Shown piece after piece: positions 19,582 through 22,329 of a DNA stretch of 64,000 bases. Position 1 is the stretch's first letter. The number at the start of each line of letters is the position of its first letter. The position numbers and the translations under genes were made by a program. This stretch comes from an uncultured Opitutaceae bacterium. GTDB lineage: Bacteria > Verrucomicrobiota > Verrucomicrobiia > Opitutales > Opitutaceae. The notes under the pieces were generated by a model. The model was given only the letters and a program-made list of their open reading frames with translations, did no database searches and was not told the origin of the DNA. The DNA lies in the NCBI GenBank assembly GCA_903890485.1, contig CAITBM010000063.1:1-64000 (forward strand), in the 5' to 3' direction.

Positions 19582-21090
19582 ATGTTCTCCGCCTTCACGA
19601 ACTCGCTAAAAATCCCCGAGCTTCGCTCGCGGATATTCTACACCCTTGCGCTCCTCTTTGTGGCGCGGGTGGGCTGTGCGATCCCGCTCCCGGGAATCGA
19701 CCCGCATCCGCTGCAGGAGTTCTTCAAGCAGCAGTCGGGCGGCACCAGCGGGGCGATGATCGGCCTTTACAACATGTTCACCGGCGGCGCGCTCCTGAAG
19801 GGCGCTGTCTGCTCCCTGGGCATCATGCCCTACATCAGCGCCTCCATCATCTTCCAGCTGATGACCGCGGTGGTCCCGGCCCTGAGCCGCCTCCAGCAGG
19901 AGGGCGACGTCGGCCGCCAGAAGATCACGCAGTACACCCGCTACGCCACCGTGATGATCTGCCTTGTGCAGGGCACCCTCACGATCCTGGCCCTCGAGAA
20001 TCCGGCCAAACTCTTTCCCGGCTACGACGTCTCTCTCTACGGTAACATCGTGATCGTCGGGCAGGTGAGCTTCCTCATCACCTCGGTCATCTACCTGACT
20101 GCGGGCACGATGCTCATGATGTGGCTTGGCGAGCAGATCACCCAGCGCGGGATCGGCAACGGCGTCTCGCTCCTGATCACGGTCGGCATCCTTGCGACCC
20201 TTCCCGGCGCCGCGGCCCAGACCTACCAGTTCTTCTTTGGTCCCATCGGCACGAACACGGGCCACGGCACCCTGCTCGCGGTCTTCATGGTGGTCCTCTT
20301 CTTCCTGGTCACCATGGGGATCATCATGGTGGTCCAGGGTCAGCGGAAGATCCCGGTCCAGTACGCCAAGCGCGTCGTCGGCAACAAGGTGATGGGCGGC
20401 CAGAGCTCGTTCCTCCCCCTGAAGGTCAACTACTCGGGCGTCATGCCGGTTATCTTCGCCCAGGCCATCCTCCTCTTTCCCCAGCAGATCATGTCGCAGC
20501 TGGGAGCCGCGTTTAACCTCCGCTTCCTGAGCGAGTTCTCGCAGAACCTGCTCCGCGGGCACTGGACCTACTACACGGGCAACGCCCTCCTGATCCTCTT
20601 CTTCAGCTATTTCTGGGTGTCGGTCATGTTCAAGCCCATCCAGATTGCCGACGACCTGAAGAAGTACGGCGGCTACATCCCGGGGGTCCGCCCAGGCGAG
20701 CCCACGGCCCAGTTCCTGGACTTCATCATGACCCGGCTAACCCTTGCCGGCGCCATCTTCCTGACCGTGATCGCGGTCATGCCGGACATCCTTCTCTTTG
20801 AACTGAACGTTCCCGCCCGGGTCGCGTATTTCTTTGGCGGCACCGGCATGCTGATCACCGTCGGCGTCATCCTGGACACCATGCGCCAGATAGAGACTTT
20901 CCTGCTCCAGCGCCACTACGACGGATTCCTCAAAAAGGGCCGGATCCGGTCCCGGAGCACGAACACCCAGGCCGGCGCCATCGGCGATGCCCTGGACCTC
21001 AAGGCCGTGGGCAAGCTTTGCCTGGCCGTCGGTTCCATATTCGTCTTTGGCTTAGCGATTTGGGCAGCCCGCCGCTGGAGCGGAAGATGA
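19582..21090 (+). CDS. secY: Protein translocase channel subunit SecY
   Basis: 502-residue SecY, the inner-membrane protein-conducting channel; longer than the E. coli protein (443). Ten membrane segments are recognisable, with the pore/plug region GIMPYISASIIFQL, the cytosolic loop RKIPVQYAKR, and the conserved C-terminal loop NLKKYG-type motif seen as DDLKKYGGYIPGVRPG. It lies between rplO and the adk-like gene, the normal spc location. Confidence 0.98.
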   Translation: MFSAFTNSLKIPELRSRIFYTLALLFVARVGCAIPLPGIDPHPLQEFFKQQSGGTSGAMIGLYNMFTGGALLKGAVCSLGIMPYISASIIFQLMTAVVPALSRLQQEGDVGRQKITQYTRYATVMICLVQGTLTILALENPAKLFPGYDVSLYGNIVIVGQVSFLITSVIYLTAGTMLMMWLGEQITQRGIGNGVSLLITVGILATLPGAAAQTYQFFFGPIGTNTGHGTLLAVFMVVLFFLVTMGIIMVVQGQRKIPVQYAKRVVGNKVMGGQSSFLPLKVNYSGVMPVIFAQAILLFPQQIMSQLGAAFNLRFLSEFSQNLLRGHWTYYTGNALLILFFSYFWVSVMFKPIQIADDLKKYGGYIPGVRPGEPTAQFLDFIMTRLTLAGAIFLTVIAVMPDILLFELNVPARVAYFFGGTGMLITVGVILDTMRQIETFLLQRHYDGFLKKGRIRSRSTNTQAGAIGDALDLKAVGKLCLAVGSIFVFGLAIWAARRWSGR

Positions 21091-21118
21091 TAGCCGATTG
21101 GGCTTTACAAGGGTCCGG

Positions 21119-21547
21119 ATGGGCGCGATACTTGACCCCTTTTCCCATTTAGGCGCTCCCGCCCAAACGAAACTCCTTCTGCTCGGTTCGATCGATTTTC
21201 GCACGGAAGAACTCATGAACCGGGCCCGTTCTTTGCAGTTAGAGCACGTCTCTCCCGCCGGCCTCATGCGACGGGGGATTTCGCGGCCCTCCGGCCCTGC
21301 CGGTGGGCAAGAAGCCTCCATCCTGGCGCTCCTGCGCCGCTGGTACTTCGCGCGCAAACCTGATGCGGGATTTGTCCTCACGGACTTCCCGGCTACGCTG
21401 CTCCAAGCTAAAGTGTTCGATGAATGGCTCGACAGCCGCGACGAGGAACTCGACGCGGTTTACGCCGGCGAAAACGCTAACCTGCCCGTCATCGAGCACT
21501 ACCGCACCCTCGGCCTTCTCGTGGAGGAGGCCGGCGCCGCACGATGA
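21119..21547 (+). CDS. Degenerate adenylate-kinase-like protein
   Basis: 142-residue protein in the adk position between secY and map. It keeps the outline of an adenylate kinase. The first beta strand LLLLG (about 19-23) and the HVSPAGLMRRG segment (43-53) resemble the NMP-site ISTGDMLR. FVLTDFPATLLQA (85-97) resembles GFILDGFPRTxxQA, and PVIEHYRTLGLLVEEAG at the end resembles the Adk C-terminus. The P-loop GxxGxGK is replaced by GSIDFRTEE (23-31), and the whole LID region is absent. The ATG at 21119 is preceded by AAGGG; a TTG at 21098 is an alternative. Its TGA overlaps the map ATG (ATGA). It is unlikely to be a phosphotransferase; a non-catalytic role is inference. Confidence 0.8.
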   Translation: MGAILDPFSHLGAPAQTKLLLLGSIDFRTEELMNRARSLQLEHVSPAGLMRRGISRPSGPAGGQEASILALLRRWYFARKPDAGFVLTDFPATLLQAKVFDEWLDSRDEELDAVYAGENANLPVIEHYRTLGLLVEEAGAAR

Positions 21548-22329
21548 TCCCCGTCAAGGACAAGGAGGGGATCCTCAGGATGCGCGCCGCGTGCGCCATG
21601 GCCGCCAAGGTGCTTGATTCGCTCAAGCCCCTCGTCAGGCCTGGAATCACCACAATGGACTTGGAAGAAGCGGGCCGCGCGGAAATCGCGCGCCTGGGAG
21701 CGCGAAGCGCCTGTTTTGGATACCAGCACGGTTCGCGCCGCTACCCGGCGCACACCTGCATCTCGGTCAACGAGGAGGTCGTCCACGGAATCCCCTCGTT
21801 TAAACGTATCCTCCGGGAGGGCGACATCGTCTCCCTCGACATCGTACTCGAATTCAACGGCTACATTGGCGACAACGCCTACACCGTACCGGTACTCCCG
21901 GTCGCCCCGAAGGTTCAGAACCTCCTGCGGGTCACCCGCGAGGCCCTGGAGCTGGGAATTCGCGCAGCGCAGGTGGGCAACCGTATCGGCGACATCTCAA
22001 ACGCCATCCAGTCCCACTGCGAGGTCCACGGCTACGGGGTCGTCCGCGACATGGTCGGCCACGGGGTGGGGGTCTCGATGCACGAGCCTCCCGAAATCCC
22101 GAACTTCGGCCGGCGCGGATCCGGCGAGCGAATCAGGCCAGGGATGACCTTCGCGATCGAGCCGATGGTGAACCTGGGCGGATACGCCACCCGGACACTC
22201 GCCGACGGATGGACGGTCGTTTCCTCCGACAGATCGCCGTCAGCCCACTTTGAACACACCGTGCTCACGACAGAGAAAGGCCCCGAGATCCTGACGCTCC
22301 CCCCGAGCGCCCCGGTCGCAAAGGCCTAA
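21544..22329 (+). CDS. map: Methionine aminopeptidase, type I
   Basis: 261-residue metallopeptidase that removes N-terminal methionine from nascent proteins. All five metal ligands are identifiable: Asp in SLDIVLEFNG, Asp in YIGDNAYT, His in SMHEPPEIPN, Glu in FAIEPMV and Glu in HFEHTVLTTE. The substrate-site histidine is in YQHGSRRYPAHTCISVN. It overlaps the adk-like gene by 4 bp (ATGA) and is followed by rpsM after 60 bp, without infA or rpmJ. Confidence 0.97.
   Translation: MIPVKDKEGILRMRAACAMAAKVLDSLKPLVRPGITTMDLEEAGRAEIARLGARSACFGYQHGSRRYPAHTCISVNEEVVHGIPSFKRILREGDIVSLDIVLEFNGYIGDNAYTVPVLPVAPKVQNLLRVTREALELGIRAAQVGNRIGDISNAIQSHCEVHGYGVVRDMVGHGVGVSMHEPPEIPNFGRRGSGERIRPGMTFAIEPMVNLGGYATRTLADGWTVVSSDRSPSAHFEHTVLTTEKGPEILTLPPSAPVAKA

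Follow-up and report, generated by a model that had tools for sequence, protein, structure and literature searches.

The middle of a degenerate adenylate kinase gene in Opitutaceae, at approximately 21228–21403 of the window (the 64,000-nt stretch of DNA analysed here), encodes a conserved structured RNA, and selection on nucleotides keeps this RNA with or without the protein; we hold this with very little doubt. The open reading frame (ORF) lies between secY and map, and the RNA starts with a boxA-like word. The features of the locus are as follows.

19582–21090, forward strand: secY, the gene directly upstream, with a SecY Pfam match
21103–21108, forward strand: CTTTAC element just 5′ of the ORF start, a possible promoter or leader signal
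21119–21547, forward strand: pseudo-adenylate-kinase ORF, 142 amino acids, P-loop and LID absent
21228–21235, forward strand: GTTCTTTG, boxA-like start of the RNA
21242–21249, forward strand: 5′ strand of P1, GAGCACGU, invariant in 75 of 75 alignment rows
21251–21260, forward strand: 5′ strand of P2
21269–21278, forward strand: 3′ strand of P2
21279–21285, forward strand: UUUCGCG, conserved, a possible P3 strand whose pairing covariation does not support
21350–21365, forward strand: GCGCGCAAACCTGATG, conserved block separating P2 from P4
21366–21391, forward strand: P4 hairpin, with outer pairs (21366–21369/21388–21391) invariant and inner pairs (21374–21376/21383–21385) covarying
21395–21403, forward strand: 3′ strand of P1, ACGCUGCUC
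21544–22329, forward strand: map, downstream of the ORF and the probable first target of the RNA

The initial annotation had placed a 142-codon gene between secY and map and coupled it to the latter by ATGA, and this arrangement was confirmed at 21119–21547, with the TGA of the ORF sharing its ATGA with the ATG of map. The genes 3′ of map are rpsM, rpsK, rpsD, rpoA and rplQ (identities read by eye from the translations), running to 25580. The good Shine–Dalgarno sequence described there corresponds to a Shine–Dalgarno-like AAGGG in the window; most relatives do not show it and have CTTTACTCnGGtCgcgATG or a similar sequence at that place. An alternative TTG start is possible at 21098, and is the sole start near there in one relative (L006).

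Homologues of the ORF were found in 19 of the 38 genomes of a relatives sample that included the host, all of the same family, in which they occur in 19 of 25 members sampled. secY and map flank the homologue in 18 of 19 cases, the other locus (L017) starting at a contig end. Among the six family members without the ORF, secY is missing from the assembly in four (G004, G007, G009 and G023), and in G020 and G024 secY is followed by rpsM, with neither ORF nor map. A larger set of 104 loci was composed of the best 80 of the 154 loci obtained when named genomes were scanned (most of them bearing the titles Opitutaceae, Opitutae, Opitutus or Verrucomicrobia) and of 24 loci from a class sample; some genomes are repeated and the window is one of the loci. 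secY lies upstream in 104/104 and map downstream in 103, the remaining locus ending with its contig. The expectation that the same gene would occupy the secY–map position in relatives was thus borne out in all 104 family loci examined. Wherever map is present (103/103), the distance between the ORF stop and the map match is −4 to +10 nt. In six family loci (L069, L079, L217, L218, L219 and L220), rpsM follows secY, map is gone, the RNA blocks are absent and CTTTAC is present.

An overlapping gene was considered and rejected. The other two forward frames contain on average 4.7 and 5.1 stops and are open in 0/104 loci, and the reverse frames average 2.1, 2.2 and 4.8 stops, with 7, 1 and 0 of the 104 loci open. 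In this count the main frame is free of stops by construction, being read to its first stop; the near-constant placing of that stop at map is the stronger evidence for it.

The adenylate kinase (Adk) landmarks reported earlier are real, though weak on the window sequence alone. The window protein scores 16.0 bits against Pfam ADK (PF00406; E of 0.013), short of the curated cut-off of 26.8, with an E of 3e-4 against NCBIfam adenylate kinase, far under the cut-off, and an E of 0.013 against PDB sequences. Some relatives exceed the Pfam cut-off (for example, G016 with 46.4 bits). The best matches of the window protein are the spc-operon adks of other orders in the class, where the six loci examined have an adk of approximately 220 residues at secY–map, with GPP[GA]SGK in 6/6. 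The AlphaFold model of the 142-residue protein (pLDDT of 76.3 and pTM of 0.70) has an Adk-core fold. The 50 Foldseek matches listed comprise 49 Adks and one UMP-CMP kinase (best E of 1.6e-5, with a modest TM of approximately 0.5), and the 50 VIA-align matches listed are all Adks (Z up to 11.9 and rmsd of 3.3–3.4 over 125–126 residues), so that the model counts as a structural match to solved Adks. On the basis of synteny, best matches and fold, it is virtually certain that the ORF derives from the spc-operon adenylate kinase and has been converted into an Adk-fold protein without kinase motifs. It shares with the spc-operon enzyme its position and the order of secondary structure, and longer members of the ORF family have the NMP-binding region; it differs in having neither P-loop nor LID and in an Arg-to-Ala replacement at the AMP site.

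The loss of P-loop and LID seen in the window was confirmed: GxxxxGK occurs in 0/104 family loci (L142 shows an isolated GKS), and no LID domain was found in the window protein or in A2. Of 18 homologues, 17 have Ala in place of the Arg of GFPRT, which we take to be the AMP-site Arg of adenylate kinase. A 244-residue version in G427 (one metagenome assembly) has no P-loop and has a LID-like segment that includes Cys pairs; this one intermediate suggests that the P-loop may have been lost before the LID. In 11 genomes from other families of the same order, adk is absent from the locus, where 15–228 nt separate the secY stop from the map match.

Substitution rates locate the constraint within the ORF. 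Fourteen pairs were taken for the most part from the low-dS end; in these the ORF has a smaller dS than map (14/14) and than secY (12 of the 12 pairs compared) and a larger dN than map (12/14); some ribosomal-protein genes have a dS as low or lower in the same pairs. When 428–430 pairs were instead selected on the dS of map, dS expressed relative to map had a median of 0.80 for codons 1–36, 0.46 for codons 37–96 and 0.99 for codons 97–134, with omega values of 0.50, 0.46 and 0.30, respectively, and 0.19 for map. The map-like dS of codons 97–134, together with their omega of 0.30, indicates some selection on the protein, which is hence not mere filler in most lineages; to this extent the dN/dS comparison across relatives agrees with a maintained protein. 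Among amino-acid-invariant degenerate codons of the ORF, 13 of 31 are also codon-invariant (81 sequences), compared with 0/238 in secY, 0/86 in map, 0/69 in uL15, 1/91 in uL6, 1/72 in uS13, 1/108 in uS4 and 12/230 in rpoA. The frozen codons include ones with 4–10% usage in the neighbouring genes, invariant in 81/81 rows. The strongest constraint on the ORF is therefore on nucleotides and not on the protein. The view that the ORF is maintained and not decaying holds in that most of the family keeps it, and needs amending in that its chief constraint is at the nucleotide level and the protein has been lost in two lineages.

At the start of the RNA, GTTCTTT is found in all 104 loci and GTTCTTTG in 101, the other 3 having GTTCTTTC; GTTCTTTGAA occurs in 75, and the window reads GTTCTTTGCA instead. 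The domain that follows is probably closed by P1 (GAGCACGU/ACGCUGCUC, invariant and predicted to pair) and holds the P2 and P4 hairpins. Conserved words across the 104 loci are CCCGGCTACG[CT]TGCTCCA (104/104), CG[CT]AAACC[CT]GATGCGGG (101/104), GAGCACGTC (104) and GATTTCGCG (95).

Covariation was evaluated in an alignment of 75 rows, selected from the 101 distinct sequences among the 104 with near-duplicates dropped. The proposed P1/P2/P4 structure is paired in 92.6% of cells, compared with 89.4% in shuffles, and has 71 two-sided changes, compared with 28.0 (0/500). Its covariation score is 0.130, compared with 0.083 in shuffles (0/500), and versions slid by 1–3 columns give at most 0.068; pairs with a two-sided change number 9, compared with 6.7 (6/500). 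P2 contributes the bulk of the signal, with both sides changed in 7 of 10 pairs and 83.9% of cells paired, although two of its pairs fail to form in 39 and 32 of the 75 rows. Inner P4 covaries as well. These comparative data indicate that P2 and inner P4 pair. P1 and outer P4 show no variation in the 75 rows, and pairing there is predicted. P3 is paired in 96.4% of cells, and no covariation was found for it.

Chimeric hairpins, with halves from different species, fold more weakly than natural ones, by 2.1 kcal/mol for P2 and 1.3 kcal/mol for P4, a loss that exceeds those of all 51 control windows of neighbouring genes (largest 0.87). In this test the minimum over control windows was used, the mean being distorted by degenerate windows, and since kinship inflates tests of this kind, the control windows weigh more than z-scores. 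Single sequences tell less: the P2 stretch of the window is not better folded than its shuffles (66/200 as good), nor is a 59-nt piece with P4, folded alone, better than its own. RNAalifold on the whole alignment gives a different and ambiguous structure because so much of it is invariant; this structure has P2 and P4 in common with the proposed one. Rfam 15 gave no gathering-score match in the window or in six related loci, and a relaxed scan of 20900–21700 gave five weak matches, the best with an E of 1.3.

A covariance model of the RNA has matches in 194 of 252 family genomes (E ≤ 0.001; 9 of the 194 weak), representing 42 of 49 genera. In those checked among the 58 family genomes without a match, either secY is not in the assembly or the ORF and map are absent. 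In the class sample, 25 of 26 matches fall within the family and the other is partial (E of 0.003), matches outside the family being just marginal.

Two lineages, each represented by one metagenome assembly, separate the RNA from the protein. In G497 the frame of the ORF is broken; in G230 the frame is open and still meets map, and Adk likeness is gone (no tblastn match). Compared with a congener, 68/77 and 70/77 positions of the RNA blocks are identical in G497 and G230 (88–91%), and identity outside the blocks, with gaps counted as differences, is 36% and 37%; in control pairs with an intact ORF, the blocks are 99% and 95% identical and the remainder 65% and 46%. The P2 hairpin is still possible through other pairs in both, and is better than its shuffles in G497 (1/200 as good) and not clearly so in G230 (27/200). 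The RNA thus appears to outlive the protein in these two lineages, and so appears to be what evolution keeps. A conserved pseudoenzyme can accordingly rest on RNA constraint, and the intermediates—P-loop lost and LID kept (G427), LID lost, protein lost (G230 and G497)—make this a natural case of a protein gene being turned into a vehicle for a conserved RNA. Such an element would escape any search for structured RNAs that looks at intergenic regions.

These observations bear on the role first suggested for the protein. The ORF product could be a pseudo-kinase with a structural or regulatory role and the main product of the gene, with nucleotide conservation as a by-product of codon choice; the Adk-core fold, the omega and map-like dS of codons 97–134, and the invariance of W75, W103, R107, Y128 and other residues fit that account. 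The invariance of little-used codons, the covariation of P2 and the RNA blocks that remain where the protein is gone run against it and make it quite improbable. Of the pseudo-kinase reading, what stands is a pseudoenzyme of Adk descent that most of the family retains; the protein as the main constraint does not stand; for the suggested link to secretion or methionine removal, nothing was found beyond gene position.

Nine divergent family members that were fully read (G335, G349, G350, G022, G452, G451, G480, G317 and G427) keep the Adk-like ORF and GTTCTTTG (9/9), and lack the full set of the other RNA blocks; a tenth (G424) is truncated at a contig end, and G359, with a better score, has GTTCTTTC. 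From its distribution, GTTCTTTG is older than the folded domain. The AMP-site Arg is retained in five of the nine (G022, G349, G350, G335 and G317), so that the Arg-to-Ala change may have accompanied the RNA block.

According to PMC5725501, boxA lies upstream of 16S and 23S in rRNA, has the gamma-proteobacterial consensus GYTCTTTAANA, and is also found upstream of suhB and rpsJ in gamma-proteobacteria. Compared with that consensus, the element is one base off in most loci (GTTCTTTGAA in 75/104); the window has GTTCTTTGCAG. Within the family, G014 has GCTCTTTGAAA before and GTTCTTTGAAA after its 16S gene, and the core word GYTCTTTR of these sites is matched by GTTCTTTG in 101/104 loci, a likeness of 8 nt. 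The comparison with rrn boxA uses G014 alone, as the 16S gene was found in one genome (not located by the Rfam model in 4/4 genomes, nor by a primer pattern in 5 of 6). GTTCTTTG is found in 2 of the 11 secY–map gaps of other families of the order (L067 and L221, at 34 and 35 nt beyond the end of secY and not within an adk) and in 0 of the six spc-adk loci of other orders.

To the best overall explanation, that the pseudo-kinase ORF carries a cis-acting, probably boxA/Nus-type RNA for map and the ribosomal genes, we give even credence. By analogy with rrn operons, and held a little more tentatively, the RNA may act in cis on the nascent map–rpsM–rpsK–rpsD–rpoA–rplQ transcript in an antitermination-like manner. 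NusB–S10 would bind the boxA-like GTTCTTTG, additional factors would be recruited by the folded domain, and elongation by RNA polymerase through the ribosomal segment would be sustained or regulated. The ORF would be kept open, and its coupling to map maintained, to let ribosomes from secY through to map, with the pseudo-Adk protein as a presumed secondary product. The identity as boxA, the binding of Nus factors, the sign of the effect and the promoter are each putative. Against this explanation counts the expectation that ribosomes would unfold a structured RNA inside a translated ORF.

The element resembles rrn boxA, the NusB–S10 site, in the GTTCTTTG core, in the word flanking 16S in one family genome and in its ribosomal operon; unlike rrn boxA, it is followed by a folded domain inside a coding frame, and NusB–S10 binding is proposed. 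Like the boxA sites of suhB and rpsJ in PMC5725501, it lies outside rRNA and would affect a protein gene; the suhB boxA described there is a short 5′ UTR element near the start codon, whereas the present element is longer, structured and inside an ORF. If boxA is confirmed, a ribosomal-protein operon comes under Nus control as well, and how this phylum coordinates the synthesis of rRNA with that of ribosomal proteins becomes testable. More tentatively still, boxA and the P1–P4 domain may constitute a new RNA class, antiterminating or regulatory, through which a ribosomal-protein operon is linked to the antitermination machinery of rRNA; it would have arisen inside a redundant enzyme gene, the dead gene being reshaped, amino acids included, as an RNA carrier. 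In a search lying mostly outside subscription journals, the element was not recognised in the literature on adk or ribosomal-protein leaders of Verrucomicrobia and Opitutaceae, on pseudokinase Adks, on boxA at ribosomal-protein operons or suhB, or on coding-region RNAs.

Ribosomal-protein leader RNAs are known from the S4/alpha operon and others, and other such leaders work as autogenous operators. S4, S13 or S11 could likewise bind the folded domain and repress map–rpsM–rpsK–rpsD–rpoA, with the boxA-like start incidental. The position upstream of rpsM–rpsK–rpsD, also shared with the known leaders, the conserved multi-helix fold and the missing folded domain in the six family genomes read where map left the locus are in keeping with an operator. 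It is rather unlikely, given that map intervenes between the RNA and the ribosomal genes, that GTTCTTTG predates the folded domain, and that 16S rRNA likeness does not rise above shuffles on either strand. A 16S rRNA mimic was itself rejected, no local alignment exceeding shuffles. The element further differs from the known leaders in matching no Rfam family and in overlapping a coding frame.

Just 5′ of the ORF start, CTTTAC is found in 97 of 103 related loci (with a different spacing in L158) and is also kept in 6/6 family genomes that have rpsM after secY and neither ORF nor map. Whether or not the ORF is there, its spacing from CCTTTTC stays the same in family genomes; CTGGAC takes its place in six loci, and a pyrimidine tract lies approximately 29 nt downstream of CTTTAC (21103–21108 in the window). 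CTTTAC and the tract are a possible promoter or leader signal; a plain sigma-70 promoter was rejected, as no clear −10 box was found. Such a promoter could produce a trans-acting small RNA, with the element as its 5′ part and its operon position incidental: CTTTAC and the tract are kept where the ORF is gone, and the long invariant stretches could pair with targets. That proposal is highly improbable, since the element is always between secY and map in the loci read, no well-scoring copy, whether additional or relocated, is among the matches listed in the genomes searched, and a clear −10 box is not apparent.

The suggestion that a functional adk would have to be elsewhere found candidates in the host genome: contig 36 carries a tandem double ADK, and contig 22 a P-loop ADK-like protein of 444 residues from stop to stop, or 409 from the first start. 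With other P-loop ADKs in the genomes, the spc copy is probably redundant. In the host double ADK (L001; contig 36, 12082–13371), as in L023–L026, a single open frame of approximately 460–500 residues holds both ADK domains; the host protein has GPSGVGKGT in its N-terminal half and GGPGSGKGT in its C-terminal half. In G016, G017 and G019, Pfam finds, the spc remnant aside where that scored, just one ADK match, in an open frame of 416–437 residues; members of this type that were inspected carry GxPGxGKGT. The contig 22 protein (L003) and its matches among the 38 relatives sampled are ADK-like, approximately 400–440 residues long, with a long C-terminal extension, and score far under the NCBIfam adk cut-offs. 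In several genomes a protein of the L003 type is the single ADK match besides the spc remnant, and, judged from sequence, this type may serve as the order's functional adenylate kinase.
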